The position numbers and the translations under genes are program-made. Positions 25,515-57,150 of a stretch of 64,000 nt of DNA are shown in pieces. Numbering within the stretch: the stretch's first letter is position 1; the number at the start of each line of letters is the position of its first letter. The notes below the pieces were generated by a model. The model was not told where the DNA came from. It saw only the letters and a list, made by a program, of their open reading frames with translations, and did not search any database. Origin of the DNA: Onthophagus taurus (Eukaryota > Arthropoda > Insecta > Coleoptera > Scarabaeidae); assembly GCF_036711975.1 (NCBI RefSeq), contig NC_091972.1, forward strand, positions 7,693,001 through 7,757,000, given 5' to 3'.

Positions 25515-27054
25515 TTATTTTAGATTTACAGCTAATCCTGTTACTTTATGTTCAAGTGGTTTATCATAATGAACAGTTCTTATTTTTCCTTCCAAATTAA
25601 TAGCGTAAATATCGTAAACAAGTGCGGGTGCATCAAGAAATGGTTCTTTAGAAGCTCGATCAGCAGCTTCTTTTAATTCTTTTTTAACTTTAGCATCCAC
25701 ATTGTTGAATTCTTCTTCGTTGCAAACATTTGCCGCAGTAACCTTTTTCTTAAACTGCATTATTGGATCAGATGACTCACGTTTTTGTTTAATTTCATCT
25801 CGTGATCGATAACTCGTACCTGGATCTGACATAGAATGTCCATGATAACGATACGTTACTGCTTCAAGAATTATCGGGCCTTTTCCGCTCAAAATATATT
25901 CCTTACAAAACCGCGTAGCTTCACGTATCGAAAAAAAATCCATACCATCTGCTTGAACACCAGGGATATAATCACCTAAAAAAAATCTTGGTTTTGTGAA
26001 AATGTTAAAAAAACCGAAAATTTTAAAATAAAAGAATGAAAATTGAAAAAGAAAATATTGGACGAGTTTGTTAGAGAAACGATTCAACAGACGAAACGTG
26101 CTATTCAGTTAGAGAGCTCATTCGGCGATGTCATCTTCAACGCAAAATTGAAACTGTGGTTTATGGAACACTGCATACCCTCCGTAACCGCAACAAATTG
26201 TAATTTTGAGTCTGTACGTAGTCGGTCTGCGGAAATGGGTTCTAGATCGAAATGGTGGGTATTCCCTTTTGTTACACTTGCACTGTTGCCTACTGCTTCT
26301 AATTAGGAGTTTATTAACATCGTTTATTCGTAATGAAATTACCTCTTGTATAATAGTCTGGATTTGCAGATGATCTTTTCGAACTTGTTCCCATACCGTA
26401 AAGATTATTCTCAACGACATAATAAGCCGGTAAGTTCCACAATTTAGCCATGTTATAAGCTTCGAAAACTTGTCCTTGATTAGCAGCACCATCTCCGAAA
26501 CAAATCACAGATATACCACCTGTGTTATTATATTTATGTTGCAAAGCCATTCCAGTTCCTAAAGGAACGTGAGCACCAACAATTCCATTTCCACCATAAA
26601 AATTTTTCCCATATGTATGCATCGAACCACCTTTACCTTGCGAAACTCCCGTAGCTTTTCCGATTAGTTCGGCTATAACACCATGCATTGAATTTCCCAT
26701 CACCAAATTCCAACCATGAGCTCTATACGACGATATTATATCATCTTTATCACTCATCATTGATTTAATTCCAACACAAACAGCTTCTTGACCATCATAT
26801 AAATGACAAAATCCACGAATTAATTTTTTAGTATAAAGCTGAGCCAACAAGTTTTCCATTCGACGTATTGCGACCATGTATTCATACATTTGTAACGCTT
26901 CTTCTTTGGCAATTTTTGAAGTTTGTGACGGTTCTGATGGTAATTTATGAACTTTATACGGGGATGTTTTAATTTCCGCTTCTGATGAATAATTTTTCTT
27001 TTGAAATATATTGATAAATTGGGTTCCTCGTGTTAAAATTCGACATGGGTACAT
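25515..27054 (-). CDS. PDHA: pyruvate dehydrogenase E1 component subunit alpha, mitochondrial (two exons)
   Basis: This is the alpha subunit of the E1 heterotetramer that decarboxylates pyruvate with thiamine diphosphate in the mitochondrial matrix. Exon 1 is 27,054-26,343 and exon 2 is 25,975-25,515. The 367-base intron starts GTAATT and ends TTTTAG, and joining restores the conserved YYTRGDYIPG. The product is 390 aa, the length of human PDHA1. I start at the ATG at 27,054; the upstream frame extends only to a TTG. The first ~28 residues are basic with no acidic residue, as in a mitochondrial presequence. Visible motifs: YRAHGW, the thiamine-diphosphate/Mg motif GDGAANQG...ENN, and the loop YRYHGHSMSDPGTSYR with both regulatory serines; the third kinase-site serine (GMGTS) is kept too. 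Oddities: NNGYGMG of usual E1-alpha reads NNLYGMG here, and the C-terminal third is divergent. It has only one coding intron, so it may be a secondary, possibly germline-expressed copy rather than the main gene. Confidence 0.93.
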
Positions 27055-27335
27055 TTTTAAAACAATTTCTTTTAAGATCCATAAACTAAAGAAACAAACC
27101 AAACCTTTTCTTTAGGAAAGTTATATTATATGTGTCATTTATGACAATGTCAGAAAAAAAAAGTGATTTTTAAATAAATAAAAAATATATAGTTATCATT
27201 TAAATATACTTTCATCTTAAAGCTTAATCTTTTTCAATGATTAGATGTTATATTTCTTAAAGATCAAGAATATTGTCTTTAGATGCACTTGAACCGGAAC
27301 TTTCTAGTTTTTGCTTGTTAATCAGGATTAGATTG
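27055..27335. other. upstream region of the PDHA-type gene
   Basis: About 280 AT-rich bases between the PDHA-type start and the palindromic repeat cluster. A TATAATATAA-like word (27,117-27,130, read on the minus strand) lies about 65-75 bases upstream of the ATG and could serve as a TATA element. A TTCTTTAG word at about 27,078-27,085 (minus strand) could be an acceptor of a 5'-UTR intron. Neither can be proved. Confidence 0.25.
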
Positions 27336-30389: not shown

Positions 30390-30764
30390 CTATGGATTCT
30401 GCCAAAGGATAAGATAGCTGATAACATTCTATGATTGACAGTATCAAAGGCCTTACTGTAGTCTAGCAGATTCTAGCATATTTGCTGTATCGCAACTGTA
30501 GTTAGCACGAAATTCAGACTGTGTCCTAGACAAGATATTAAGTTTATCGACAAATTCCCGAATTTGATCATTCATAATTTTTTCCAATACTTTAGACGAA
30601 ACAGGTAAAACACTAATTGGTCGCAGGTTCGAAAATGTTATAGGATTTTTATTCTTTGGCAAAGGTGTTACCAAAGATTTCTTCCAACATTTTGGAAAGA
30701 TATGGAAAAGTATGAAGCATTGGATGAAGAATTTAATAGGTGCAAAGTTTACTGCACAAATCAA
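30390..30764 (-). pseudogene. LINE reverse transcriptase fragment (CR1/L2-like)
   Basis: Minus-strand frame with reverse transcriptase palm and finger words in the right order: CWKKSLVTPLPKNKNP, then LRPISVLPVSSKVLEK, then a degraded QSEFRANYSC. After a frameshift near 30,460 the first catalytic-aspartate motif follows as LDYSKAFDTVNHRML (to about 30,400). The order and spacing are those of non-LTR retrotransposons; the SKAFDTVNH form is most like CR1/L2-type elements, though the clade is uncertain. It is truncated at both ends and frameshifted, so it is not functional. Confidence 0.8.
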
Positions 30765-33700
30765 CCAGAAAAAGCAGCAAAATGGAGAAGTGCAGTAAAA
30801 CTGAGAGTGGAATTGATACTAAAATACCAATTCAATCAATTTTTAACTAATTCATTAAATTCTTGTTTAACTATTTTTTTTGACGTATATTTTGTACAAT
30901 ATTATTCCTTGATTCAACTTGATCTTTACGAGACAATATCGACGTTGAAAACCACAGAGTGGGGTCGATATACACGAAGTTGAAAGCTTCGAACATCATC
31001 CCCGATCCTCGTACCGCGGCGACGGACCTATTAACTTTCTGTATGGACACATTGTTAATGTGAATGAGTCTTCGGGGGCATTGACGGTGAGCAATTGGGC
31101 AATTCTGGATAAAAATTCATTATTCTGTTTGAAATTGAACCACCACGAGCCTCTCCCACGTGGCCACCTTCCGATCTAGATTTAAATTGATTAATTAGAA
31201 ATTTAATTATCTTCGACTCTCTTCGAATTACGGATAATGGACAAAATGATGAAGTCCTTCTTTATTTTTTGTTCGATTTGGTGAATATATGACGACGTAA
31301 TTGGGGTGAAAGTAGTACTCTGGGAGTGGCATGAAACTTAATCTAAGTTAAACGAAACGTAATGGTAACAGTGAGAATAAATAAGGGAAAATGAGGAAAA
31401 GATAGAAAAAGAAGGGTGTTTGAATTCATCATTCATTACAATTATTTACATTTCGTTATTTTATTGGTTGCTTTCAATAATTTCAACTACAGACAATATT
31501 TAAAACATCAGTGGTTAATTAGTAAATATCAATATTATATTATTGATCATAAACATGAACAATTCTCTCTAATAACTAGAGGTTTTATCCATTACTGAAT
31601 TTTATAAATAAACTGTTAACCGAGAATCATTTAAATTCCAACAGAATAAACTGAAAATTTTATATCTAAACAATGCTAAATAGTAAAAGTTGTTTTTGTT
31701 TTTTTTTAAATATTTTGTCTATTTTATTCATGGCAGAAAAAAACGAGGTCAAATTTGTTTTCGGAAAAAAATTTAAACAAAAAAATCTAAATATTAATTT
31801 CAATGTCATTGCCGACCAGACATAGTTCGGCGAATAAAAGTAAAATCGGGGCGAACGAACCGTTCGGGGCCGATTTAAATTTCAATTCATTAAGCTCTCG
31901 ATAAAAATGCATATAAAAAAACCGTTACCGGATCGATGTAACATTTTTATTTTGTTTATATTTAGGTCATTTAGATGTCGGGCACCTGAAAAACACGGGT
32001 TGAAATGAAAAAAATTACGCAAAAACCGACGGCACCGTTAAAAAAAAAATAACCCACGCACACACCGTTGTTCCCTCTCAATTATTAATATAAACAGCCG
32101 ATAAATTCTGTGTCGCGGTACAACAAAAACAACAAAACCAAAAAAAGTCGACAAATTTGCGGGTTGTGTTAGAGAAGGACGGAGCTAATGGTTAATGGCT
32201 CATAAAGCAATTTTTAACTTTCAATTTCGATATACGAACAAACGCATTTTAAACGGGGAACGTATTGATTTTAATAATTGTACAGGCATATTATTTCATT
32301 CATTCGTTGTTTCATTATTTTAATTGTGTTCATTATCAAGATGTTCATTCATACCCGGAATTTTATTGTAAACGCTTCGGTCCCGTTTATATATTATTTT
32401 ACCGAATAATTTAATTTGCGAATATAACACCAACCCTGTACAAATTATTGCTTTTTAAACGGTTCCTACTTTTATGACCTCAATACATGTTTACATTTTA
32501 TTATAAATCGGTCATTTGCAAAAGTGTTAAATTAAACACAATTATTTTAATAATACAACCTGATATTCATTAAAACTTTCACTCTTTTTTCATTTTATTA
32601 TCAACTCACTTTTTAATCGACTTTTTTCTTCTTTGTATTTCCACCCTAAAGGGTGTGATTGACGAACGATGTAAAGGACTTTCTGGAGTTAACCGAATGG
32701 TATTCGAGAAAGAAAACCATATAGAAAGTGGTAGCCTGCGGCCGAGTTTGAAACGATGTGAAAAAAGGAGGAGAAACGATGGACAATTCATTTGGGCCCG
32801 TCGGCTTACTAGGCACACATTAAAGTAATCAATACTGGGTCCTCCGTCACTGGTTACTACCGCACTAAAGGCGCCCACGTATAAAAAAATATATAAAAAC
32901 CAGCAAAAAAGGGAACAATAAAAAAAAATCGGGACTGAAGAGAAAAAAAAAAAATAAAAGGCGAATACGAGGAATACAAAAAAAAATCGTTTAATTCCGT
33001 TTTAATTAGACAATTAATAACGAGGGATAAAGTTTAATTAAAATTTAAAGAGGAGTTAGAATAATTACGGATAATTAAAAGGTTAAAAAGAGGAAATAAT
33101 AAGTTTAAATAATGAATGTATAATTGGTTTTGATAAGTTATTTAACTTAATTGATTAAAAGAATTGTTATACCATTTAATTAATGGATAACATCAATGTG
33201 AAAATCTCAACGAGATTAGAAGCAAAACACAAAAGTTTAAAGTTGTTTCTTACGAAAATGACATTTAGCTTCAGGTGCACCTGAACAGATACAGAAGAAT
33301 GTCTTAACGAAGGTGTATCCTATTTTCTATAGAATTGATACTAAAATCGGAACAAGAATGATAAGATTCGTTATGGCAATCAACTCCCAGTATGAAGATA
33401 AAAATAAAGTTAGTCAAAATAATCAGAACAATCGAAGACATCCATACCATAGAAAGGAGTAAAAGTAAAAGTAAAAACCACATGTTGTTGAAATCAGATC
33501 ACAAGTGCATCAAATAAGGAACTGAAAAAAGAACAGTCAACATGAAGTACAACAAATAGTGTCAAACAATGTGATAGAAGGAATACAGGACTTTGAAGCA
33601 AACGTGAACTAAGTAAGATGGAAAGTTGAGTCAAAAGATGAAACAAACTTTGAAGGTTTTTGAGAAACTGAGAATTTTTTTTTTCAGATGAAATTGATAT

Positions 33701-36775: not shown

Positions 36776-38879
36776 TTTTTGGAGGAGTAAAAATGTTAAG
36801 GACTTTTCATTATTATCGTTGTGTTTCTAAGGGGATGATGTTGTCTAATATTTTGGATTTTAAGCAACAATTTTTTTTTGGCTTTTTCAAACAGCGCGAA
36901 AATTACTGTGATTAATTTTGAATACTTCATGAACCGTGAAACAGTTTTTGATCCCATGACATTGCTGGGTATAGTATGTACTTATTGAAATGCAGGGATG
37001 TTTTGGTAAGCTGACATCTGTAGCGGTGTTACTAACCCTCAATTGAAAACCAAAGGTAATAACGGTGATTCATGGTTTACAATATTTATTTGTAGCTAAA
37101 CACGTTAAGTTTTGATTTATAACATTACAAAATTAATAAACATTTCTGAATTTCCTCTTAATTTAAAGTTATTAATACACTTTTTTGGTACATTATTAAG
37201 ATAAAAATTTATTAATTATGAAGAGCATTAAAGAAAACAGGATTAATATATGTTGTGATTACAAATCATCAATTTGCCACAACTGTTTCAAAACCGTCTA
37301 TCAATAAATGCTCTAAATGTTCAAATTTCAAATAAACTAAACCGATTTAGTCGATCATGTCCACTAATTTTCAAGTACCTTTTAGAACATTACCTAATGT
37401 TACTAATGCGTAAACCCGAAACCAAATTGTTTAGGTATACAAAAAGTCTAATTTTCTTTTTGTGACTCGTGATGAGAAAGAATGACCAAGGTTGAACCTT
37501 GGTTTAGCTGCCTGATTGGAAAGGAGAATCAAGTAAATCAGTAGTGTTTGTAAGATATCGCCAGTTTGCAATAAGTGAATAAACTATGAGAATGCTTTCA
37601 TTAAATGTGAATGTCTATTGCAATCCGTTAGCTTTGGTCTTCGTACTTTCAACAAACTGTTTCTATTGAATGAGTGAGTACGGTTTGCGTGATTGTTTGC
37701 TGGTTTCTAGTGTATTTGTTACTAAATCAATTAAATGAAAAGCCCAATAAATCTCATTCTAATTCTATTGTGTCTGACAATATCTGACATAATCAGGCCT
37801 TGTAGAACACAATAAGAATTCATTATTGACTACAATTGCTGTTAACAATTTTTGAAGACAACAAAAAACAGTAGATCATGATTAATTGCATCTAAGATCT
37901 TTGAAAACACAAGATGGTCTAATATAGTCAACATTTGATTCAGAGATGTGCCTATAATCTAAAATATTCATAGAATACGCTATTTTAAAATCTAGGCAGT
38001 TCACAAATGATGAGTAGAAATTATTGAGACTTCGCATCTTCGAATTCCTTTGTGTTTCTGTCACTTTATTGAGTATAGAGATTCGTCTAAACAAGAATTC
38101 TAAAAAGAATTTGCAGTTTAAGGAGTGGATAGAAAAAGTAATTGAACGAAATGTGCAAAGTCTAGTTACAAATCAAAGGAATTTATTCCCATGTCATGTT
38201 ACTATATGTCATGATTGTTTTATACATTCTCATCATTGTTTGTCGTTGTAAGTTTTGTGAGTTGAATACATGGTCTAGTGTATGCTCTTCTTCCACTGGT
38301 TGTGTATCTAGTTATAGTTATGTCAACTTTCTAGTAGTTTCCTTCTGGAAACTCTCCTGTATTTCTACGAATTTTAGATTTACTGTATTTAATTTATTAA
38401 TCTGTTATCCCTGTTTGTTCCTGTTGTGGCTTATTCTGCACCTAAACTACGTCTACACCACGAAATAAGCCACAGTATGCTCTCTTTCATGTCTTGACGT
38501 CCAATATACTGCTTGCTGTCCTTTCATTGGTCTCCTTGTGCAGAGAATGTCCTCCTACAGTATTCATGAAGTGCTATTCTTATGCCCATTATGTGCCTGA
38601 TATCATTTCCTGGTGATATTGTTGGTTTGTTAATATTGGCATTAATTTACAAATCCCACAATGAATTAATTACAAATTTATCGAATGTACTATACCCTGA
38701 AACAGGTTCAATGCAATATCTCAATCTTTACGTTTCGATACAATAATACAACATTGTCACAGCATATAATAAAATATTGTACCACGAAGAGAATTTTGCT
38801 AGGTTGTTTTAGTAAAAAAATTGTGTACTACGTCAACTTGTGTGTTGATGATTTGTTCTGATCAACCTCAAATTCTGTC
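36776..38879. other. AT-rich spacer, no gene seen
   Basis: Open frames at plus 38,024-38,251 and 38,196-38,468 are Cys-, Ser- and Phe-rich without a domain. The part just before 38,880 may belong to the LINE fragment but is not readable. Confidence 0.35.
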
Positions 38880-39375
38880 AAGTAAACTTTTAGATGTAGC
38901 TAATGCCTTTGATACAGTTTGGACGGAGGGATTAAAATTCAAAGTATTGCATCTAGGTCTAGATGATAATATTACCGCAATACTTATGCCATATCTTCAA
39001 GAATCAACTTTTTGTGGGAGAATAAATGGGACCTATTCAGATACAAGATGTATTAGAGCAGGAGTTCCTCAAGGAGGTATATTGTCACCAACCTTACTTA
39101 TTATATTTATACATGATATACCGTGCCAAAGATGCAATGAAAAAGCTCTGTTTGCTGACGATATGTTGATTATGACCCAAGGTTGTGATTTGGAGGAAGC
39201 TACAGAACAGCTACAAGATGCTATTAACGACGTGCAGAAATGGCTTAGTAAATGGTCCTTACAAATGAATGAAGATAAATGTGAATCTATGATCTTTACG
39301 TTACGACGTTACCAAAATCCAACACGCATTATAATCAATAATACAGAACTTCATTGGACTCCTAAAGACAAAGTA
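38880..39375 (+). pseudogene. LINE reverse transcriptase fragment (jockey-like)
   Basis: A plus-strand open stretch encoding the core of a non-LTR reverse transcriptase. It shows LLDVANAFDTVW (first catalytic Asp), then AGVPQGGILSPTL, then FADDMLIM (catalytic Asp pair), then the thumb-side LSKWSLQMNEDKCESM. Such order and the FADD form fit jockey/X-type elements of insects. The frame runs on to 39,519 but the last ~45 codons are unrelated. No endonuclease domain, RNA-binding ORF1 or poly(A) tail is visible, so this is a fragment truncated at both ends. The open frame opens at TTG (38,821), not a true start. It is a different lineage from the 30.4-kb fragment. Confidence 0.88.
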
Positions 39376-39519
39376 ACAATTAATTCTCATTTTCTTGATG
39401 CAATAATCTATAATATACAATTTTTGATATTATTGATGTATGAGTTTAAAGTTTATTGTTTGATAATTAGTTTTGAAATGAAGTTTGAAATGATTGACGA
39501 ATTTTTGGTATTCTTTTAG

Positions 39520-42319: not shown

Positions 42320-43700
42320 ATGTTAATTAAAGAACATCTAATAATTTCTTTCTTCATTACAGTTTATTTAAATTTTTCAATTGGTCAAGAATTATGCCTT
42401 CACCCTAAAACTATTAAACGTTTCGACGAAGTACCGGTAACTCTATAAATAAATTTATTATATAAAATATATGTTTTAATTATTTTATGAAGTGTGCAGA
42501 GAAAGTATGGTATATTTACGCTGGAAGTAGTCAGTGTGAAGGATGTTGTATAACTCGTAGAATGGTGTTATTGGAACCTGGTAAAATCCTAGTAACAGAT
42601 ACAACAACAGTAAATGGGTAAATATTTAAAAAATTTGTTGGTTTGTATCTGCTCCATTTTGTTATCAATTTTGTCAAAATTCATGGAACCATTTTCTATA
42701 TATTTTCTATTTAAAGCACAAAATGATAAAAGAGTAAGTGATTCTTTAGAATTTGAGAAAATTGGCAAATTAAAAAATCCATTGATTCGGGTGTTTTGAG
42801 CGACTGTGTGAATTTTGTATTTGAAAAGTATCAAACAAAGATATCCTCAATATTTATGGTTCTTAGAACAAAAACCTTTCATTTTGAAAATGTTTGGCTA
42901 AAAGCCAAAACGTTCTTTCCCGTAAAATGAATGAGTTTTACATCTTTCTTAATATCAAATTTTTAATATTTTTGATTCTATCGAAGACTTTCTCAGTCTG
43001 AAAGAAGAGATTGTACTGTCTAGAAGATTAGGAAACATTTCTTGTTAAAAAAAGACAAAACTTGCTATCGACTATTAACTTATCTTGTTTGAGCAAAAGG
43101 TTTTGGTAGCTTATAATTTAGATTGTTTTGAATTTATTAGTTATGAGTCCTACTTTTGAGAGTTCTTTTGTGAGTTGAAGACATTTTTCTGCTTACTAAA
43201 ACATTCTAATTGACAAATGACTAAAATTATATCGTGCATCGCAATCATTGGGTACTTTTGTAAAAATTCTGTTATTGCTTCCAAATTCATATTATTAACA
43301 ATGAATTTATTTTAGTGAAACAACGTCTGTAACATTTACTGCGCAAAGAAATAATACTGACGCAACTTATTATTTACCAGGAAGTAATTTTTTAAAACTT
43401 ATTTCTATAAAATTGTTTAAAACTGCTTTTATAATGTTTTTAGATCCACTCCCAATAATAATATTAGATACTGATTGTCAAACTTATGGAGTTGTTTATA
43501 GTGAACCAACGAGTAAGTTTTTATGTTAAAAAATAAAGTACTTATATTAATCACTTTTTCATTTAGATCAACTTCAAGTGTTTACTTATGAACCAGTACA
43601 AGAATCACACTTTTTAAGAAAAACTAAAGGAATAAAACGATGTGATGCTATTTTATATGAATATAATCCTGCGGTAAATTGTTTAGGAACAGTATCATAG
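42320..43700 (+). CDS. secreted Cys-rich lipocalin-like protein, five-exon type (copy A)
   Basis: Five exons: 42,320-42,436; 42,493-42,617; 43,316-43,383; 43,444-43,512; 43,567-43,700. All introns are GT...AG and the joined frame gives 170 aa. Residues 1-22 are a signal peptide (hydrophobic after MLIKEH), so the product is secreted. The mature part has a Trp strand (KVWYIYAGS), a CEGCC cluster, RMVLLEPGKILVTDTT, FTAQRN, then LDTDCQTYGVVYS and an RCDAILYEYNP tail. A Trp near the first strand, a TDxxxY strand and distributed cysteines at this size recall lipocalins, which bind small hydrophobic ligands in insects; this is my inference and the family may be something else. AATAAA at 43,766-43,771 is a likely polyadenylation signal. 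It is closest to copy F at 49.4 kb, with identical intron phases, and lacks the NMT glycosylation site of the three-exon copies. Confidence 0.8.
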
Positions 43701-44519
43701 AAGAAAACCAAAAAAATTAATTTTAGTGGCCTCTGTAAAATGATATATAATGTCATTATAATGGAAATAAACGTATTTAGTACTTAACATGATTTAAGAC
43801 TAGTTCGTTCTTTACATTTACATAATTTAAAAATCACACCTCCACTCATAACATAGAAGAGAATGAAAAAACTCCCCGGTGGTGTAAGGTTCAGATTGTT
43901 ATTTATAATTTATCGTTAAATCGAAGTGTTTTTAAAGACTTCAAATTCAAATTTTTAAAGAAAACCACAAATAAGGTGTTAGTTAGTCAGGGTTAACACC
44001 TTCAACTATTAAATGAGTATGTAAAGATGTAGAATAGAATACAGGGTAGCCTGTTGCCCTAAGGGCTCCTATAAGGATGTTGCACATACTGGACGAGTAA
44101 CAATTGGTCGTGTTCGGGGAAGAGATTTCTCCAAAAATAAAAAAACTCGGTATAAGTTGTTGATTCCAATATGGAGTAGTCTCCATAGGTTAGATCTAGT
44201 TTCCTTAGTGACAAGAACCTAATAACTGATTCCAGTGATCAGTTGTTAGATGTAATACACATAGTGATTGTTTTCTGCTGTATTTCCAACCTACAAACAG
44301 AGTATTGATGCTCACTGATTTAGTTGAACAACTTTATTTTAAGCATTTATCTTTTATTTGTTCTGTAGAAAGAAATGTTAGCACATTCAGGAGAGTGTAT
44401 TGATTGTTGATCTATGTATGGTGATCTATGATCTGTTGTATTGAGAGTGTTGATTTATTGTGTAGTGACTTTTTTTACAGCGATTTGAGGTTTAGTTGCT
44501 TGCGTTTTTTCTTGACGTG
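43701..44519. other. intergenic, no gene seen
   Basis: The block 43,980-44,220 has a minus frame (43,983-44,186) without a recognisable domain and could be a transposon fragment. No splice pattern of the cluster family is seen. Confidence 0.35.
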
Positions 44520-44520
44520 T

Positions 44521-44600
44521 ACTTTTCATCGACGTTTTATGGGTAAACTAGAGCGTGGAACCAATTTAAATGAATACAATCCCGCATTAAATTATTTTGC
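44521..44600 (+). pseudogene. terminal-exon relic of a five-exon cluster gene
   Basis: About 80 bases alignable to the last exon of copy F (50,041-50,118). The best stretch includes TGAATACAATCCCGCATTAA, encoding E-Y-N-P-A-L-N as in the tails of copies A and F. The upstream part is shifted and degraded, the conserved R-C before it is gone, and no earlier exon is found. It runs directly into a copy of the divergent intergenic segment of the array. Confidence 0.7.
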
Positions 44601-44710
44601 ATAATTTTCAAATAATCACAAACATATTTTGTTTTCTTAATATTGCCAACACATGCATAACTAACACATAAACAAAAATAAGAGGCGTTATCAATAATAA
44701 TAAACCATCT
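44600..44710 (+). repeat. truncated copy of the divergent intergenic segment
   Basis: Matches 45,538-45,650 (between copies B and C) and 48,624-48,735 (between copy D and pseudogene E), including AATTTTCAAATAATCA and TTTGTTTTCTTAATATTG. Here it is cut off at about 44,700 and followed by 3' flank of copy B. Confidence 0.85.
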
Positions 44711-44833
44711 ATACCACCAAATATTGTTACATATTATATACTATTACAAATTATTTATTAAATCAATTACGTTCGCTTTTAAGTACACAACATAAGTATA
44801 TGAATAATGTATATTGATCAATACACAGAAACA

Positions 44834-45480
44834 TTAGTGATTAGTTTTTACACCTTTACAAGCTTCTTTAGGATTATAATCGAACATTTCAATACCACAT
44901 TTTTGTACACCATGCAAACCACTTTGAAAATTACGCTTTTGTTGTGCTTTACCAGTGAGCGTCATTAATTCACCATTCTTGTAATCGTAAATTACACAGT
45001 ATTTCTTACAATCTGTGTCAACTATCACTAAGGGTTGTGGGTCTAAAAAATTAAGTGAATAGTGAAATAAATTAAAAGACAAATTATTAGTTAAGAAAGT
45101 TAAATGTTACCATTATCCACGAAATAAATAGGTTCCGTTCCATATCGCTTAACTTCGTAATTTTTAGGAGTAGATATTCTGAAAATTAATTATAAAATTA
45201 ATGATTAGGGATTGAAATTAACGCATTAAATTAAATATAATACCCATTTATGGTTGTAGTATCTGTTACAAGAATTTTTCCAGGCTCTAAAAGTGTCATG
45301 TTGCGTATAATACAACAACCATCGCATTCAGTACTTCCACCGTAAAAAAACCAAGTTGTGGTAGCACATTCAAATTCGTTAAAGTTACTTGGTGATGGAT
45401 CATTACATACTTGGTAGGATTGGACTGAACCGATCCAGATTAAAGTAGACACAACAGTAACTAAAAATGGTAAAAGACAT
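44834..45480 (-). pseudogene. secreted Cys-rich lipocalin-like protein, three-exon type, frameshifted signal peptide (copy B)
   Basis: Exons on the minus strand: 45,480-45,244; 45,178-45,111; 45,042-44,834. Splice sites and phases equal those of copies C, D and G. Summed exon length is 514 bases, one more than a multiple of three. The extra base is in the signal peptide, where this copy has a T5 run (45,465-45,469, read on the minus strand) and copies D and G have T4. The ATG at 45,480 therefore leaves frame after four codons. Everything after it is intact: TWFFYGGST, CDGCC, RNMT glycosylation site, LVIVDTDCKKYCVIYD and the QKCGIEMFDYNP tail. It may be a recent pseudogene, a length-polymorphic allele or an assembly error. 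A three-base in-frame deletion (SNF for SKYF) also sets it apart. A TATA box is at 45,525-45,532. Confidence 0.8.
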
Positions 45481-45524
45481 TTTTAAGATTTTAGAAAGTA
45501 ATAAGCCGACTCTTGCAGTTTTTT

Positions 45525-45532
45525 CTTATATA
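45525..45532 (-). promoter_or_regulatory. TATA box of copy B
   Basis: TATATAAG on the minus strand, 45 bases upstream of the ATG at 45,480. Copies D and G have the same element at the same distance, followed by the same AAAAAA(C/T)TGCAAGAG-type leader in copies B and G. Confidence 0.6.
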
Positions 45533-45537
45533 GAAAA

Positions 45538-45790
45538 TTATTTTGCATAATTTTCAAATAATCATAAACATATTTTGTTTTCTTAATATTGTCGACACAT
45601 GCATAACTAACACACATACAAAAACAAGAGACGTTATCAACAATAATTAACGACTTACGCATTAATTTTATGTATCATATGCATCAAAACAGACGGTTTA
45701 TCGTTAATTCGTGAGTGTTAATAAAACAGGCAAATCTGTATTCAATATAAATACATGTATTTTTAATTAGTTGAACTCCACAAAGTCCAT
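45538..45790 (+). repeat. divergent intergenic segment, copy 1
   Basis: The region between copies B (minus) and C (plus) is about 90% alike to 48,624-48,868 between copy D and pseudogene E by eye, with few gaps. It includes a TATAAATA element at 45,746-45,753, 121 bases before the start of copy C, which is kept at 48,832-48,839 in the other copy. Confidence 0.9.
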
Positions 45791-45873
45791 AAAAAACAAG
45801 TATGTAAACAGTTGAAGTATCGGTTTTCATTAATCATTTTATTGTTTTACACGAAATAGCACTCGTCTTGAAG

Positions 45874-46523
45874 ATGTCTTATATCAGTTTACTCACCATT
45901 TTATTCGCATTAAACGGGATTGAATTAGTGCACCCTTACAAAATATGTAATAATCCTACACCAAGTCCATACTACAGTGAAGTTGAATGTGTTACCACGA
46001 AATGGTTTGTGTATGGCGGAAGTAACGATTGTACGGATTGCTGTATTACACGCAACATGACGGTTATAGAACCAGGAAAAATTATTGTTACCGACACTAC
46101 AATCAAAAATGGGTTAGTTTCCTGTATTATTACTACATTTGATCGTCAACATGATTAAATTTGTGAACTAATTATATTAATTAATATTTAGAGTCACAAC
46201 TTCTGAAACATATAAAGCTACAAGCTTTGGAGCGGATCCTATTTATTACAAGGAAAATGGTTCGTTATATTAATTGTTACGTTATTGATATTTATTTTGA
46301 TAATTACTTTTCAGATGATTATCCCAAAGTAATAGTCAGTACCGATTGTAAAACGTTTTGTGTAATTTACGATTTTAAAACTGGAGATATACACACGTTC
46401 ACTAATAAAGTGCAACAAAAACGTAATTTTCAAAAAAATTTAGACGGAATTCAAAAGTGTGGTATTGAAGTATACGATTATAATCCTGGAAAAACTTGCA
46501 AAGGTGTTGATGTTTTTCAATAA
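45874..46523 (+). CDS. secreted Cys-rich lipocalin-like protein, three-exon type (copy C)
   Basis: Exons: 45,874-46,112; 46,192-46,259; 46,315-46,523, 171 aa in total. Start chosen at the ATG at 45,874, which gives a signal peptide of about 20 residues (MSYISLLTILFALNG). Mature features: TKWFVYGGS, CTDCC, RNMT (N-glycosylation sequon), a middle exon with TYKATSFGADPIYYKEN, then VIVSTDCKTFCVIYD and QKCGIEVYDYNPGKTCKG. Intron 2 has a weak donor (GTTCGT). The last two coding exons of the five-exon genes are fused into one here. AATAAA overlaps the stop codon (46,519-46,524), and a second copy follows at 46,529. Plus-strand partner of copy B in a divergent pair. Lipocalin-like assignment is inferred, as for copy A. 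Confidence 0.82.
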
Positions 46524-46639
46524 AAATTAAATAAAATACACTGTATATCTAATATTTAATATAAAATTATATGATTTTAAAGTTGTAAGTAATATAAGTT
46601 CTAATTTAAATACCTATTATAACATTATAATAAAAAAAA

Positions 46640-46698
46640 TTTACATATAAATACATGGATATGATGTTAGACGTTACAAAAACGTATTTGATCCTTTT
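46640..46698 (+). repeat. 3' flank segment shared by copies C and F
   Basis: TATAAATACATGGA followed by TTAGACGTTACAAAAACGT matches 50,340-50,395 downstream of copy F. It marks the start of the convergent spacer of the duplicated unit. The match is lost where the hAT remnant begins. Confidence 0.8.
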
Positions 46699-47610
46699 AA
46701 CACAGCTTTTCTGAAGCTATGGCGGGGCGCCCCCAAAAGGAAAAAAAACGATAATTATTAATAAAAAAAATTTTATTCACAGAAAGAAAAGCAAAATAAT
46801 ATTCATGCTGACATTACAAAAAATTAAGTAAGTACAGTACACGTTTAAACTAATATACTATTTAATTATTATAAATATGATTGTATCAGTAGATACTGAC
46901 AATTACCAAATGAAACTAATAATAAACTCATCAGTACTAAATTAAAAGTAGCTTTAATAATTATTAGTGACGGTTTTATATTACAAATAGCCACTCTCAG
47001 TTTTTTGTCTATATTCAATCGAGAACTATATTTTGTCTTTAAAGCAGAAAACGGACAAAATCCATCTTCGCAAAGGTAGGATATTGAAAATGGCAATAAT
47101 AGAGGAAATGCTCTTGTTTTCAGTGGAGAAAAGGCATCATCCACTCCCGCCCAAAATTTAAAGACAGATTTATTACTAAATTTTCTCTTGATTTCGCCGC
47201 TTGCAGTAAAGTCTATGAAGATTTCTTCTTCTGCAGTTGAGAGACCTTCTGGAGTAGTTCAAAATGAATCCCTAACCCACTCATAACTTGCTACCAATTT
47301 GTCGTCAGCAAGAAAATACTTTCTAAAATTCTGTGCCAAGATGGCTAAATGATTTTCCATAGTTACAAATAACAATTTTCACGTACTGTTCTTCTTCCTT
47401 GTATGTTTTGACACATTCATTCACATTTGCAAACATTTCTAGTTTTTTTTTTTGTTTCACATTTCTGCTCCACAGCTGCAACTTTTTACAAAAAGCTAAC
47501 TTTATCATTGCTATCCAACATATGTGTGTTTGTTCCTTGGAGTTGTACATTCAGGGTATTTAATTTCTCGAATATGTCGACCAAGTAACTCAATTTAAAT
47601 TAATCAGAAT
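46699..47610 (-). pseudogene. hAT-family transposase remnant (ZBED5/SCAND3-like C-terminus)
   Basis: Minus-strand relic in several frames. Reading from 47,610 down: SYLVDIFEKLN, LNVQLQGTNTH, FCKKLQLWSRNV, then after breaks EEEIFIDFTASGEIKRKF, FWAGVDDAFSPL, RAFPLLLPFSISYLCEDGF, SALKTKYSSRLN and LRVAICNIKPS. The last words are the conserved dimerisation region of hAT transposases as found in ZBED5- and SCAND3-type proteins (established family feature). At least two frameshifts break it. No terminal repeats were firmly identified, though a GGGGCGCCCC palindrome is at 46,724-46,733. Its ends fall between segments that are adjacent in the sister spacer at 50.4-50.5 kb, so it inserted into the convergent spacer of the C-D pair. 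Confidence 0.85.
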
Positions 47611-47930
47611 TAATCAGTGATGACGATAAGATAGACTCGAAACGTGATAAATAGATGTCAAACACTAACCATGAATTTATTGATGATGAAGACCAAATTA
47701 TTAAATCAGAAACTGGTATTAATTGATTTTTGAGGAAGTTCAATTATATTTTTATAACAGATTTATATGCAAAAAAAAATAAAAGGAAAATGGAAAAGAA
47801 ACCACAATATATTGTTATATATCATACTACTATTACAAATTATTCATTAAATCAATTACCTTTTACATTTGCTTTTTAAGTACACAAAATAAGTATATGA
47901 ATAATGTGTATTAATCAATACACAGAAACA
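47611..47930. repeat. convergent spacer segment, copy 1 (holds the empty site)
   Basis: Matches 50,513-50,578 plus 52,795-53,070 near copy G, for example GATGATGAAGA, AAATTATTAAA and GAAAAATGGAAAAGAAACC-like words. In the G copy the match is interrupted by the foldback element; here the corresponding junction (about 47,675-47,690) has no insertion. Confidence 0.75.
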
Positions 47931-48562
47931 TTACTGATAAGTTTCTACACCTTTACAAGCTTTTTTAGGATTATAATCGAACATTTCACTGCCACATTTG
48001 TGTACACCATACAAACCATTTTGAAAATTAGGTTTTTGTTGTGCTTTATCAGTGAACGTCTTTACATCATCATTCTTGTAATCGTAAATTACGCAGTATT
48101 TCTTACAATCTGTATCAACCAATACTATAGGATTTGGGTCTAAAAAAAGAAAGATTAAAAGACAAATTATTAGTTAAGACAAAAAAGTTAAATAAATGTT
48201 ACCATTTTCCACGAAGTAAATAGGTTCTCTTCCATATCGCTTTATTTTGTATATTTTAGAAGTAGTTATTCTGAAAATTAATTATTAAGAATTGAAATTA
48301 ACCTATTAAATTAAATACAATACCCATTTATGGTTGTAGTATCTTGTACAAGGATTTTTCCAGGTTCCAAAATTGTCATGTTGCGTGTAATACAACAACC
48401 ATCGCAATCTGTACTTCCCCCGTAAACAAACCATGTTGTGGTAGCACATTCAAATTCGTTAAAGTATTTACTTGGTGATGGATCATTACATGCTTGGTAG
48501 GATTGGACTGAACCGATCCAGGTTAGAGTAGACACAACAGTAACTAAAATGGTAAAAGACAT
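47931..48562 (-). CDS. secreted Cys-rich lipocalin-like protein, three-exon type (copy D)
   Basis: Exons: 48,562-48,324; 48,270-48,203; 48,139-47,931, 171 aa. Signal peptide MSFTILVTVVSTLTWIGSV with cleavage likely near QSYQ. Mature protein: KYFNEFEC, TTTWFVYGGST, CDGCC, RNMT sequon, KILVQDTT, middle exon with KIYKIKRYGREPIYFVEN, then LVDTDCKKYCVIYDYKND and the HKCGSEMFDYNPKKAC tail. Nine or so cysteines suggest several disulfides. TATA box TATATAAC at 48,611-48,618. It is very similar to copy G and forms a divergent pair with pseudogene E, as B does with C. Relative to G, the tail has S for I (KCGS) and K for E (NPKK). Lipocalin-like fold is inferred. Confidence 0.85.
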
Positions 48563-48610
48563 CTTTAAGATTTTAGAAAGTAATAAGTAAGTAACTTCTT
48601 GTAGTTTTTT

Positions 48611-48618
48611 GTTATATA
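48611..48618 (-). promoter_or_regulatory. TATA box of copy D
   Basis: TATATAAC on the minus strand, 49 bases upstream of the ATG at 48,562, at the same place as in copies B and G. Confidence 0.55.
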
Positions 48619-48623
48619 GAAAA

Positions 48624-48868
48624 TTATTTTGTATAATTTTCAAATAATCATAAACATATTTTGTTTTCTTAATATTGTAGACACATGCATAACTAACTTA
48701 TAAACAAAAGCAAGAGACGTTATCAACAATAATTAACGACTTACGCATTAGTTTTATGTATCATATACATCAAAACAGGCGGTTTATCGTTAATTCGTGA
48801 GTGTTAATAAGACAAGCAAATCTGTATTCAATATAAATACATGAATTTTTAATTTGTTGAACTCCACA
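48624..48868 (+). repeat. divergent intergenic segment, copy 2
   Basis: Second copy of 45,538-45,790, between copy D and pseudogene E. It ends at TTGAACTCCACAA, exactly where pseudogene E has lost its first two exons. Confidence 0.9.
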
Positions 48869-48914
48869 ATGAATTATTACTTTTTTTATACATTTATTTA
48901 TAATTACTTTTCAG

Positions 48915-49106
48915 GTGATTATCCCAAAGTAATAGTCAGTACCGATTGTAAAACATTTTGTGTAATTTACGATTTTAAAACTGGAGATATGTACACGTTC
49001 ACTAATAAAGTGTCAACAAACGCGTCATTTTCAAAAACATTTAGACGGAAACCTAAAGTTTGTGAAATCCTGGAAAAACTTGTAAAGGTGTTGATGTTTT
49101 TCAATA
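48915..49106 (+). pseudogene. 3'-exon remnant of a copy-C-like gene (copy E)
   Basis: Only the last exon survives. It opens after an intact acceptor (TTTTCAG, 48,908-48,914) with VIVSTDCKTFCVIYDFKTGD as in copy C, then loses register within the QQKRNF region. A deletion of about 20 bases removes the GIEVYDYN part before a degraded GKTCKG end. The promoter segment upstream is intact but jumps straight to the last-intron sequence, so about 500 bases carrying exons 1 and 2 have been deleted. The stop TAA and an overlapping AATAAA are retained. It cannot make the family protein. Confidence 0.88.
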
Positions 49107-49298
49107 AAAATTAATTAAAATAAATAAAATACAATGTGTATCTAATATTTGATATAAAATTATATAATTTTAAATATAAATAATAAGATTAGAAGAAATA
49201 TGACATGTTATAAATCTTACTAAAATATCGTGAATAATTAACACACTAATGTATTGTATGTTCGTGTGCATGTATAATCAAAGCACATTTTAGTTAGA

Positions 49299-49306
49299 TA
49301 TAAATA
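49299..49306 (+). promoter_or_regulatory. TATA box of copy F
   Basis: TATAAATA, 51 bases upstream of the capital-case start ATG at 49,357; spacing agrees with the other cluster genes. Confidence 0.55.
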
Positions 49307-49356
49307 CAGATAAAATTTTAAGTGTATTTCACTTCTTTGTCAACGTACATTTGAAT

Positions 49357-50118
49357 ATGTTGTCTAAAAACATCCCTTGGATATGTTTCCTTCTACTTGC
49401 AAATACTTTACAATTTTCTATATCCCAAGATGTTTGCCGCAAATCTAAATCTATAAAAATTGATAATAGTGAAGCCAAGGTAAAGACTTTAATTTTTTAA
49501 TAAATTAAAATGTAATAAGTGTTAATTAATATGGTTAAGTGTGTGAATGTATCATGGTACGTTTACGCTGGTAGTGTTCCTTGTGATGGTTGTTGTATTA
49601 GACGTAATATGGTTGTATTAGAATCCGGAATATTACAAGTAACTGACACGACAACAGTGAATGGGTAAATAAAAATAAATCTTCTAATAATTTTCTTTTG
49701 TAACAAACTTATTTTAGCCAAACTTCATCGGTGACGTTCACAGCTCAAAGATTTAATGATTATGCTACTTATTTTGTAGCTGGATGTGAGAAAGAGAATT
49801 TTATAATATTTATAGATAGCAGTTATAATTAAGTTTTTTAGATTCACTTCCATTAAAAATCGTTGATACCGATTGTGAGACTTATGGAGTTGTTTATAGT
49901 GAAATAACAAGTAAGTTTGGTTGAAAGATGATAATTTTAATCTTGATTTAAATCAGAATCGAAATTACTACTTTTTTATGTACACTTATTTGCTTGTAGA
50001 CATCCTTCAAGTTTTTACAGCCGAACCAGAACAAACTCCTACGTTTTTATCGAAATTAAAAGGAGTGAAAAGGTGTTCTATGCCTCTATATGAATACAAT
50101 CCCGAATTAAATTGTTAA
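49357..50118 (+). CDS. secreted Cys-rich lipocalin-like protein, five-exon type (copy F)
   Basis: Exons: 49,357-49,479; 49,540-49,664; 49,718-49,785; 49,842-49,910; 50,000-50,118. All junctions are GT...AG and the product is 167 aa. Exons 2, 3 and 4 have exactly the lengths of copy A (125, 68, 69 bases). Signal peptide MLSKNIPWICFLLLANTLQF, then SQDVC at the mature end. Further on: WYVYAGS, CDGCC, RRNMVVLES, VTFTAQRFNDYATYF, VDTDCETYGVVYSE, LQVFTAEPEQ and RCSMPLYEYNPELNC, ending on Cys. Polyadenylation signal AATAAA at 50,153-50,158. It interrupts the E-G segment: the 3' flank of E matches that of C up to about 49,190, and the match resumes after F at about 50,330. F is therefore a later insertion into the unit. 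Lipocalin-like fold is inferred. Confidence 0.83.
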
Positions 50119-50329
50119 TATTATAGTGTAATCTTCAAATCCTACGAAACTAAATAAAAGAAATTGTTGTTTTTCAATTAAAAATTGTTTAATTTCCTTT
50201 AATTAAGTACTTAATATGTAAATTATATATGAGTTAGATATGCTTATATAAAACTTTAGATATATTGCAAGATCTTGGTTATTGCATTAATTTTGGTATC
50301 TTTATATTTTAAAAAATTCATGAACGTTG

Positions 50330-50578
50330 TATAAATATATACAGTCTATAAATACATGGAGATAATTTTAGACGTTACAAAAACGTGTTTGATCCTATAA
50401 GATAATTTTTGTTTAAATTATCGTTGCTTAACTAAGAAAAAAAATGTTGTATCACTTTATCAAAACCGGAAAACATCAACTCAACAATAATCAATATGAA
50501 GATATTGATGATGCTATTGAATTAATCACTGATGATATATTCCAAACTCGATAAATATATTATTATTTATCGATTATA
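50330..50578 (+). repeat. convergent spacer segment, copy 2 (left part)
   Basis: Matches the start of the C-D spacer (46,640-46,698) and then, after the point where that spacer holds the hAT remnant, 47,611-47,680. A 35-codon ATG frame at 50,444-50,551, acidic and Asp-rich (YEDIDDAIELITDDIF), lies here; I recognise no family and take it as chance or a remnant. Confidence 0.65.
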
Positions 50579-51199
50579 CAGGATGTCCCGTTAAGCGTAC
50601 GGAGCGGCTGTATCTCTAGAACGGTAAGGCCAAGAGGTTTGGGAAAAAAATCCTTATAAGCAAAGTGACCAAGAGAAATAGCTGGAAATTATTTTGAAGT
50701 TCGTAATTCGACCGCTAGGGGGCGTAACTGCCATTGAGAAACATAAAGTTGCCGCTATCTCAGAAACTTAGACGATGAGCTATAACTTTGACACCATCAT
50801 TTAATAGCTTGGATAATACCGCATCGCTTTTGTTTTGCGATATTTCTCATATCTGTCATAATAAGGGAGGGGGAGGCCAATGCGTTTTCATATGTTTACA
50901 TTTTAATATCTCCTAGACCATTCAACCGATTTGAATGTTTTCGGTGTTGTTTGAAAGAGCATTTTATGCTCTTTTTAAAGATATTTTCAGTAAGACCGTC
51001 TGCTTTAAAACAAATGAGCTAGAGGACGTTATCTGCAGCGATTACATATTTTTGTGATTTTTGAAGAAAAATTAAATGGAACGATACTATTTACTTCACA
51101 AACCCTTAGTCACCTTAAAATTTGCTAAATTTTAGTGAAAACCGCATCTCGATATCACCACCCGTTCTCGAGTTGTAGAAGAAAATGTTAAAAACTCGA
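50579..51199 (+). repeat. left terminal inverted repeat of the foldback element
   Basis: Arm of about 620 bases; pairs with 52,173-52,794. Landmarks are GACCGCTAGGGGGCGTAACT (50,710-50,729) and a GAGCATTTTATGCTC palindrome (50,958-50,972). Confidence 0.92.
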
Positions 51200-52172
51200 G
51201 TGCCATCAATCGGATCCAGTTACCTCATCGAGAAAAACAAATCACATTACCATGGTAACTGTAAACATGTCATTTACTAACGCAGAAGCGTATGATAGAG
51301 CGTATGATGATTTATTTTCAATGTTTCGAATACGATCCAACTGCATGGCAAAAATGTGCAATGCAATTACGACAAAGAAAGACATTTTTCTCTAGAAGTG
51401 TTTTTAAGATTGACTTAGCGATTACGGAAAACTGGCAACGTGTAGCCCATTCAGACATCTCTATGAATTCGTAAATCATATTGGTGCGCAATGTGATCCC
51501 ACATAATCTGGGAACTCCGAAAACAATTGTCCACAAGAGTTCTCAAGAGAATAATATCTCCACCACGTTGTTTTACATCAGGCCTTAACAGATACCGATT
51601 ATAATAACAGACTGAACTATTACCATTGACTTTTAAATATGATTTGGGCAAATCCAAACCTTTTATCACAAATGCTGTGGATGCATGAAGCATCTGTCCA
51701 CAAGCTGATGTAAACTTGCATAATATGCATTCTTGGTTCGAGCAAAACCCACATTGCTTTCACCCCTTTATCTATTGGGTAGACTAAACGACCTGACTTT
51801 TCAAGAAAAACCAATAACCAGGGAAAATATGACAAAACACTAAATACCAGTAAAAAGTGTCCAGGGAAGAGACTTAGCAGCGCTTTTTTTTTTCGTCGAA
51901 ACTAGATTAAATAAATGCATCGAGGTTTATGTAAGACATTTCGAACATTAGTGAGCTATTTTTGCCAAAAATTTAAGTTATTCTAAGTGTTTCGGTTTAT
52001 TTTGTTTTATTATCATTGTTGATGTTTCATTGATCCGTTGGCTTTTCAACACGCCTCAAAAGTAGTTTTGAAGCAGTTCTAAGCTTGGATAAAGTGTGAA
52101 GGAAGGTTCTAGATAATAAAATTTTTGTTATCTCTTATTTGTTTCCTAAGGTAACTTGATCCGATTAAGATA

Positions 52173-52794
52173 TACGAATTTTTAACATTTTCTTTTATAA
52201 TTCGAGAATGGATGGAGATATCGAGATGCGGTTTTCACTAATATTTAGCAAATTTTATGGTGATTAACGGTCTGTGAAGTAAATAGTACCGTTCCATTTA
52301 ACTTTTTTTCAAAAATCACAAAAATATGTAACCGCTGCAGATAACGCCCTCTAGCTTATTTGTTTTAAACCAAGCGGTCTTACTGAAAATATCTTTTAAA
52401 AGAGCATGAAATGCTCTTTCAAACAAGACCAAAAATATTCAAATCGGTTGAATGGTCCAGGAGATATTAAAATGTAAACATTTGAAAACGCATTGGCCTC
52501 CCCCTTCCTTATTATGACAGATATGAAAAATATTGCAAAACAAAAGCGATGCGGTATTATCCAAGCTACTAAATGATGTTGTCAAAGTTATAGCTCATCG
52601 TCTAACTTTCTGAGATAGCGAGAATTTTATGTTTCTCTATGGCAGTTACGCCCCCTAGCGGTCGAATTACGAACTTCAAAATAATTTCCAGCTATTTCTC
52701 TTGCCCACTTTGCTTATAAAGATTTTTTTCCCAAACCTCTAGGCCTTACCGTTGTTGAGATACAGCCGCTCCGTACGCTTAACGGGACACTCTG
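52173..52794 (-). repeat. right terminal inverted repeat of the foldback element
   Basis: Reverse complement of 50,579-51,199, with the same landmarks: GTTACGCCCCCTAGCGGTCG near 52,646 and a GAGCATGAAATGCTC word near 52,402. Confidence 0.92.
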
Positions 52795-53070
52795 TATATT
52801 CATTGATGATGAAGATCAAATTATTAAACCAGAAACTGGTATTAGCTGATTTTTGAGAAAGTTCCAGTATATTTTTATAACAGATTTTTATGCCAAAAGC
52901 AAAATAAAAGAAAAATGGAAAAGAAACCACCATATATTGTTATATATTATACTACTATATAAATTGTTGTACTACATTATTACATATTATTCATTAAATC
53001 AAGTTCCTTTACAATCGCTTTTTAAGTACATATACAGTATATAACGTATATAAATCAATATACACACAAT
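52795..53070. repeat. convergent spacer segment, copy 2 (right part, 3' flank of copy G)
   Basis: Continues the match to the 3' flank of copy D (47,680-47,930), for example ATTGATGATGAAGA followed by CAAATTATTAAA. Together with 50,513-50,578 it forms one segment once the foldback element is taken out. Confidence 0.85.
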
Positions 53071-53719
53071 TTACTGATAAGTTTCTACACCTTTACAAGC
53101 TTCTTTAGGATTATAATCGAACATTTCAATACCACATTTGTGCACACCATACAAACCACTTTGAAAATTAGGCTTTTGTTGTGCTTTATCAGTGAACGTC
53201 TGTACATCACCATTCTTGTAATCGTAAATTACGCAGTATTTCTTACAATCTGTATCAATCAATACAAAAGGATTTGGGTCTGAAAAAAATATTAAATGAA
53301 TAGTGAAATAAATTAAAAGGCAAATAAATTATTAGTTAAAAAAGTTAAATAAATGTTACCATTATCAGAGAAAAAAATAGGTTGCGTTCCATATCGCTTA
53401 ATTTCGTATATTTTAGGAGTAGTTATTCTGAAAATTAAGTATTAAAAATTAAAATTAACAAATTAAATTAAATACAATACCCATTTATGGTTGTAGTATC
53501 TTGTACAAGAATTCTTCCAGATTCCAAAATTGTCATGTTGCGTGTGATACAACAACCATCGCATTCTGTACTTCCCCCGTAAACAAACCATGTTGTTGTA
53601 GCACATTCAAATTCGTTAAAGTATTTACTTGGTGATGGATCATTACATATTTGGTAGGATTGGACTGAACCGATCCAGATTAAAGTGGACACAACAGTAA
53701 CTAAAATGGTAAAAGACAT
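53071..53719 (-). CDS. secreted Cys-rich lipocalin-like protein, three-exon type (copy G)
   Basis: Exons: 53,719-53,481; 53,427-53,360; 53,279-53,071, 171 aa. Signal peptide MSFTILVTVVSTLIWIGSV. Mature protein nearly equals copy D: SKYFNEFEC, TTTWFVYGGST, CDGCC, RNMT sequon, ILESGRILVQDTT, middle exon KIYEIKRYGTQPIFFSDN, then LIDTDCKKYCVIYDYKNG and HKCGIEMFDYNPKEACKG ending ETYQ. Relative to D, the EPGK strand word reads ESGR here. TATA box TATATAAG at 53,765-53,772. It is the last copy in the array: upstream of its promoter the divergent segment found beside B and D is missing, which sets the array boundary at about 53,775. Lipocalin-like fold is inferred. Confidence 0.85.
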
Positions 53720-53764
53720 CTTTAAGATTTTAGAAAGTAATAAGCCGACCTCTTGCAATTTTTT

Positions 53765-53772
53765 CTTATATA
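53765..53772 (-). promoter_or_regulatory. TATA box of copy G
   Basis: TATATAAG on the minus strand, 46 bases upstream of the ATG at 53,719, followed by the same A-rich leader as copy B. Confidence 0.6.
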
Positions 53773-53774
53773 GG

Positions 53775-56139: not shown

Positions 56140-57150
56140 ATATATCTTTCAACTGATGCCCAGGAGATTAATACATTTATCAACCCTTCTACTAAAACTT
56201 TCTTTACATCTTAAAAGGTTTTCTTATCTACTATTTTCGCATGCATTTCTTATCCGCTCTTTCATGTTTTCTGGCGTAGTCGGTACTTCGCGATAAACAT
56301 TATCCTTAAGGACGCCTCACAAAAAAAATCAACAGGTGTTAAATCAGGTGATCTGGCATGCCAGGAAATTGAACCATCCCGATCTAAAGCTTCACTTTAA
56401 AATTCTTAAAATATGTGGATAATGTGCTGGACATCCATCATTTTGCAGCCACATATTTTGTCTTTCTTCCCTGCTCAAATCTACAAGTAACGTTGGTAAG
56501 ACGTCATCTACAAAATTTCGGTACTTCTCCCCATTCAACATCAATAAAGTATGGACCGAACAATTTATCACCAATTATGCCACACCAAACATTAACCGAC
56601 CAAGGTCGTTGATGTTCTACTTCACGTAATCATCTCGGATTTTCAACGCTCGAATAGTGCATGTTATGACTATTGACTTGTCCTTTGTTTGTAAAAGTAG
56701 ACTCATCCGAGAATAGCACGTTACCAAAGAAATTGACGTCCAACCGCATTCGTTCTTGTGCCCATTGACAAAATGTTAATCGATTTTCTAAATCACCTCC
56801 ATCAAGCTGTTGATGCAATGAAATGTGGTATGGGTGATACTTGTTGCGCTTTAATATTCTTAAAATGCTGGTCTTCGATATTCCGGTGTCAATTGCAAGT
56901 CGTCGAGTGCTAACTTGAGGATTTACCTCAACGCTAGCTAATACCGCAATTTCCTTTTCTTCCGTAGTTACAGTTGCTCGCCGAGTTCTTTTTCTTGATT
57001 CCACATTTCCAGTGTTAGTGAAATCATTCACAACTCTGTAAAAGGTACTTCTCGAAGGCGTTTTCGATCAGGCGTATCAGCAACTTTTCTGCCACTTTCT
57101 CCATAAATAAAAATCATTTCGACTTTTTCTGCCACACTTAGAGTATCCAT
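56140..57150 (-). pseudogene. Tc1/mariner (IS630) superfamily transposase, frameshifted
   Basis: A minus-strand transposase relic that would start at the ATG at 57,150 (MDTLSVAEKVEMIFIYGES). A frameshift near 57,058 moves reading into VVNDFTNTGNVESRKRTRR and the helix-turn-helix region (NPQVSTRRLA, ISKTSILRILKRN). The catalytic region follows: LFSDESTF (first Asp), VENPRW, RPWSVNVWCG, LNGEKYRNFVDDVLP, WLQNDGCPAHY (second Asp), and after further breaks WHARSPDLTPVDFF, which holds the third acidic residue of the DDD/E triad. Stops and frameshifts after that leave the C-terminus unreadable to about 56,140. All three catalytic words survive in order, so the copy is not ancient. Terminal repeats were not located. 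The N-terminus is related to the relics at 24.8 and 51.3 kb. Confidence 0.88.

Follow-up and report, generated by a model that had tools for sequence, protein, structure and literature searches.

A tandem gene cluster in Onthophagus taurus that probably encodes outlier lipocalins with eight cysteines

What kind of protein is encoded by the tandem cluster of small, cysteine-rich genes at positions 42320-53719 of a 64,000-nucleotide stretch of the Onthophagus taurus genome? This stretch (bases 7693001-7757000 of contig 7, in a genome of 290.8 Mb in 33 contigs) is the DNA that was analysed here and will be referred to as the window. A preliminary description had found seven gene copies or parts in the cluster and had guessed that they form an unrecognised branch of the lipocalins. 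The best explanation as a whole is that the proteins are secreted outlier lipocalins, forming a compact and divergent eight-cysteine subfamily that has its relatives among the ordinary ApoD/Lazarillo-type lipocalins of insects and has spread through tandem and dispersed duplication. We consider this explanation probable, as a single judgement on all of its parts.

The cluster contains five intact genes, one frameshifted copy (c3), one truncated copy (c6) and one short relic. The gene models were built by hand. The features are as follows.

42320-43700, plus strand: c1, intact, 168 residues, five exons (42320-42430, 42493-42617, 43316-43383, 43444-43512, 43567-43700), GT-AG introns of phases 0, 2, 1 and 1.
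44567-44593, plus strand: relic of a last exon, 27 nucleotides, best matching the last exon of c7 at 92.6% (blastn against the window, E 6.5e-6); of low certainty, being very short.
44713-45783, strand not given: duplicated unit with c3 and its upstream DNA; the second copy, with c5, is at 47801-48869 (blastn, 87.8% over 1092 columns).
44834-45480, minus strand: c3, one-base frameshift in exon 1, remaining frame and splice sites kept (gene model).
45874-46523, plus strand: c4, intact, 171 residues, three exons (45874-46112, 46192-46259, 46315-46523; gene model).
47931-48562, minus strand: c5, intact, 171 residues, three exons (48562-48324, 48270-48203, 48139-47931; gene model).
48916-49107, plus strand: c6, truncated to the last exon and frameshifted, 86% identity to the last exon of c4 (blastn).
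49357-50118, plus strand: c7, intact, 167 residues, five exons (49357-49479, 49540-49664, 49718-49785, 49842-49910, 50000-50118; gene model).
53071-53719, minus strand: c8, intact, 171 residues, three exons (53719-53481, 53427-53360, 53279-53071; gene model).

All 14 introns of the five intact genes are GT-AG, and the protein lengths agree with the 167-171 residues of the preliminary description. The N-termini of these proteins are hydrophobic and, judged from the sequence, resemble signal peptides. Pairwise identities among the five range from 37% to 89%. The frameshift in c3 cuts the start codon off from the remaining frame. A second repeated pair is found at 47675-48619 and 52798-53773 (blastn, 86.7% identity), and the blastn repeat units, with 651-1092 columns and 86-92% identity, are far beyond chance. 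The tandem arrangement is as described earlier, with the number of copies or parts now eight, including the 27-base relic. The pseudogenes noticed earlier are also seen here, c3 being frameshifted and c6 reduced to its last exon, with the relic as a third broken trace. The motif description holds overall, except that c4 has TDCKTFCVIY, with Phe for the first Tyr, and c8 has Ile before DTDC. Between c7 and c8 lies an inverted repeat of about 650 bases (50575-51225 and 52149-52798, 91.9% identical), possibly a mobile element or a part of the duplication process.

Protein searches with family members find relatives outside the window on contigs 1, 2, 3, 6 and 7. There are at least nine of them, a lower bound as only the best candidates were scored. 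Full exon models were obtained for seven (g41, g42a, g42b, g43, g44, g45 and g46), and these together with the five intact window genes make up the set of 12 genes used for the counts below. The broken copies (c3, c6 and the relic) are left out of these counts, as are two very divergent relatives that share the CxxCC stretch (C6:4252 kb and C7:24516 kb), whose gene models could not be closed. In the tree, the window genes fall into two groups, c4/c5/c8 and c1/c7, and g41 from contig 6 is placed within the c1/c7 group. When viral contigs were searched with the profile of five proteins, 60 stretches fit a pattern, none of which was confirmed, and a tblastn search of plasmids with c7 gave no match.

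Four intron sites are found across the 12 genes: A (phase 0) in nine, B (phase 2) in 11, C (phase 1) in nine and D (phase 1) in eight. Introns A and D are missing from c4, c5 and c8. The expected phases were at first imposed for g41, g42a, g42b, g44 and g45, and the test was later rerun with all phases allowed; open GT-AG pairs are then found in the phase of the model only for 32 of the 37 introns. The first donor site of g41 is uncertain. An alternative splice model for g44 was rejected, as it needs an impossible intron of nine bases. The intron sites and the sequences together show that the 12 genes descend from one ancestor.

The relationship to lipocalins was examined with three ordinary lipocalins from this genome (C8:6458 kb, C1:3745 kb and C2:18537-18541 kb), found with a stretch of ApoD and with one another; the name ApoD/Lazarillo for them is our own assignment. 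Stretches with translated frames that repeat many times lie on either side of the one on contig 8 (C8:6454000-6462000). Comparison of the family profile with the profile of the ordinary lipocalins by hhalign gives Prob 88.4 and a score of 43.3 over 130 columns, against a maximum of 17.2 among 100 column-shuffled profiles and 16.1 for the reversed profile. The alignment pairs the N-terminal Cys, the Trp in strand A, the Cys in strand B and the TD in strand F. In the Protein Data Bank (PDB), a profile built from the five window proteins picks up five sequences with E values up to 10, all of them lipocalins (best 0.0052), and a profile of the 12 genes finds 16 sequences with E values up to 1, nine of them lipocalins, including the two best (4.8e-4 and 0.0019). 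The hhalign comparison and the PDB profile searches thus both indicate homology to lipocalins above chance. Against Pfam PF00061, c7 scores 19.7 bits (E 0.001), and four of the 12 members match at E values up to 1. A single-sequence PDB search with c7 has T-cell receptor chains at the top (E 0.023) and ApoD in fifth place (E 0.42). The T-cell receptor matches were taken as chance because neither of the PDB profile searches lists them.

Gene structure points in the same direction. Across the lipocalin superfamily, the positions and phases of introns are generally conserved. In the ordinary lipocalins of this genome, intron A is present in phase 0 in two of three genes, B in phase 2 in two and D in phase 1 in all three, at positions 4, 2 and 6 columns away from those of the family in the joint alignment. 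Intron C is present in none. At a tolerance of six columns, three of the four family intron sites therefore match in phase and place (P about 3e-4 for random placement of four introns), and three matches at a tolerance of eight columns have P 1.2e-3. The six-column offset of intron D equals the length of a loop that is missing from the family. By our own reading of the models, c1 and the ordinary genes of contigs 1 and 8 all have the codon split by D six residues ahead of the Thr in the following strand. In tick lipocalins, intron sites and phases are conserved and serve as a mark of the family, according to the parts of the study covered (PMC3695081).

Several observations weigh against the assignment. 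Starting with the Pfam search, no member was seen to reach the curated cut-off of PF00061 (23 bits, compared to 19.7 for c7), and seven of the 16 PDB sequences found with the 12-gene profile are unrelated chains, the first at E 0.058. Kernel lipocalins are defined by three signature regions, and the family departs from each of them. The Gly of region 1 (GxW) is present only in g46, though the Trp is present in 10 of the 12 genes; the Tyr of region 2 (TDY) is present in none, though the Asp is present in all; and an Arg in region 3, next to the (F/Y)(T/S) of strand H on its C-terminal side, is present only in g45 and g46. Five of the 37 introns can be read in another phase (c1 intron 1, c4 intron 1, c7 intron 1, g44 intron 2 and g45 intron 4), and at a tolerance of three columns only one of the four sites matches the ordinary lipocalins (P 0.08). 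The fold model covers one relative only, without exon 1 and with one intron read through. It is of low confidence, its predicted local distance difference test score (pLDDT) being 60.4, with residues 52-109 under 50. One of its seven predicted strands (77-82) falls in the intron-derived insert, and none is predicted at TDC. The Z scores of the fold search are all below 8, the caution level of the tool. With Foldseek the best E value is 0.027, none of 314 matches has an E value of 0.001 or less, and 11 of the 50 rows listed are non-lipocalins. The nearest Foldseek entries, weak as they are, are tick complement-binding lipocalins and Rhodnius lipocalins, and the fold search, which depends on this model, weakly backs the assignment.

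The evidence as a whole supports the view that the proteins are very divergent outlier lipocalins, a branch of a known family and not a new kind of protein. The lipocalin guess of the preliminary description is thus upheld by the profile-profile score relative to its shuffled null, the shared intron phases and positions, the PDB and Pfam searches, in which lipocalins come first, and, weakly, the fold search. Each protein would be exported and would fold into the usual lipocalin cup, an eight-stranded barrel with a helix after it, held by disulfides.

Eight cysteines are common to the family, and all eight are in the same columns in 10 of the 12 genes; five are invariant in all 12. In g46 the first two are displaced. 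In g45 exactly two are missing, that of xEC before strand A and that of TDC. The position of the TDY Tyr is occupied by Cys in 11 genes (one inserted residue precedes it in g41) and by Ser in g45. A ninth cysteine, four residues past TDC, is found in c4, c5 and c8. In ApoD, the N-terminal Cys pairs with a Cys after strand F. Because the family lacks the Cys found after strand F in ordinary lipocalins, its N-terminal Cys would need another partner. The joint loss in g45 suggests that the xEC and TDC cysteines pair with each other, which would fasten strands A and F together. This bond is plausible because signature regions 1 and 2 of lipocalins are adjacent to each other where the barrel is closed. 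It would link the two regions, taking over the packing role of the Gly and Tyr that the family has lost. On the other hand, this pairing is suggested by one gene. A tentative proposal, which falls somewhat short of being probable, is that the family is a lipocalin subfamily with eight cysteines that is restricted to one lineage and has no name, and that its closed-end Gly and Tyr were exchanged for a disulfide from the start of strand A to the TDC of strand F, as a covalent replacement of the core signature.

The role of the proteins is most likely that of carriers of small hydrophobic molecules in extracellular fluid, by analogy with most lipocalins, which are such carriers (PMC8214410, in the parts covered). 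The cup would hold a small hydrophobic ligand, with specificity differing from copy to copy. In the same parts, expanded and divergent arthropod lipocalins are said to be possible carriers of semiochemicals, and in a blister beetle lipocalins are proposed to carry a defensive terpene in the haemolymph (PMC8576976, also in part). Within the parts covered of these two papers, no protein like the family members was tested.

The ratios of nonsynonymous to synonymous substitution rates (dN/dS, Nei-Gojobori) are 0.43 for c5-c8, 0.26 for c1-c7, 0.28-0.38 for five older pairs and 0.61 for g42a-g42b; those of the broken c3 are 0.51 to c5 and 0.55 to c8. The proteins are constrained on average, and their change is relaxed or locally fast. 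The fast evolution proposed earlier stands in this weak sense (0.26-0.61); positive selection is not supported.

Other readings of the family were also considered. The strongest, compatible with the others and in our view unlikely but worth keeping in mind, is that the fold is that of a lipocalin but the proteins are not carriers, being instead secreted effectors that bind other proteins in the manner of some tick lipocalins, or factors related to immunity or proteases. The identity of the nearest Foldseek entries is in its favor, as are the tandem copies, the pseudogenes and the dN/dS values of 0.43-0.61 in the youngest intact pairs. However, that fold ranking is weak, some tick lipocalins also bind small ligands, nothing points to a feeding or parasitic habit, and dN/dS is below 1. 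It is improbable that the cluster is mostly decaying, with most copies being relaxed or dying duplicates that have no separate function. Three of the eight copies or parts are broken, and the dN/dS values of c5-c8 and g42a-g42b would fit such decay, whereas the unbroken frames and splice sites of five genes, the five invariant cysteines and the lower values of the older pairs (0.26-0.38) speak for maintenance. That the proteins are not lipocalins at all but an unrelated secreted, beta-rich and cysteine-rich family, with a chance resemblance in the strand around TDC, is very improbable, since the lack of a Pfam match above the cut-off and the lead of T-cell receptor chains over ApoD in the search with c7 are outweighed by the profile score far over its null, the intron phases in common with ordinary lipocalins and the fold search.

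The surroundings of the cluster in the window include a pyruvate dehydrogenase E1-like gene, an ordinary neighbor (25515-27111, minus strand; PF00676, E 6.8e-57 and 6.3e-40 in two frames). Reverse-transcriptase fragments, the remains of retroelements, are found at 38803-39519 (plus strand; PF00078, E 8.7e-20) and at 30453-30818 (minus strand; PF00078, E 3.2e-5, below the cut-off). A frame at 56630-57067 (minus strand) has a helix-turn-helix match (PF13565) below the Pfam cut-off and resembles a transposase remnant. In the genome, (TTGGG)n is found instead of the usual insect TTAGG at five of the 12 chromosome ends examined (contigs 1, 2, 5, 6 and 8), and two of the 12 ends are N. A search for TTAGG gave two overlapping internal places only. 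The (TTGGG)n ends fit those of some beetles, a lacewing, a damselfly and a bee, as given in the parts covered of two papers (PMC12564400, PMC8233369).

Taken as outlier lipocalins, these genes represent a secreted family that standard domain annotation would miss, because no Pfam match seen passes the cut-off. They can be found by C-x(3-6)-W-[FY]-x(7)-C-x(2)-C-C-x(2)-R, TDC, (K/R)C, the last Cys and intron phases 0, 2, 1 and 1, with some genes departing in single elements. The proposed exchange of a signature motif for a disulfide can also be tested in this family. The insect lipocalin counts behind arguments on chemical communication may be too low if outliers are omitted.

A CxxCC/TDC lipocalin was not found in the literature covered (mainly titles and the openings of abstracts, without subscription journals), which is weak evidence of absence. 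The family resembles the expanded lipocalins of Tetranychus, Rhodnius, Bombyx and Varroa (Zhu et al. 2021, PMC8214410), which in the parts covered are multigene, partly clustered and widely divergent, mostly of 20-30% identity. In the main text of that paper, as covered, there is no eight-cysteine TDC subgroup; the word 'disulfide' is absent, and 'cysteine' occurs once, on insect odorant-binding proteins. Tick salivary lipocalins (CirpA, OmCI) and Rhodnius nitrophorins are, like the family, compact arthropod lipocalins and are weakly nearest to it by Foldseek. They are not among its PDB sequence matches. The family can further be compared with the ordinary lipocalins of the same genome. Both have a hydrophobic N-terminal leader, the N-terminal Cys, the strand-A Trp, the strand-B Cys, the strand-F TD, a C-terminal Cys, and introns A, B and D of equal phase within 2-6 columns. 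In comparison, the family is shorter between strands A and B, D and E, and F and G, has CxxCC for a single Cys and TDC for TDY, lacks the Cys after strand F, has an extra Cys before strand A, and carries intron C in nine of its 12 genes, compared to none of the three ordinary ones.

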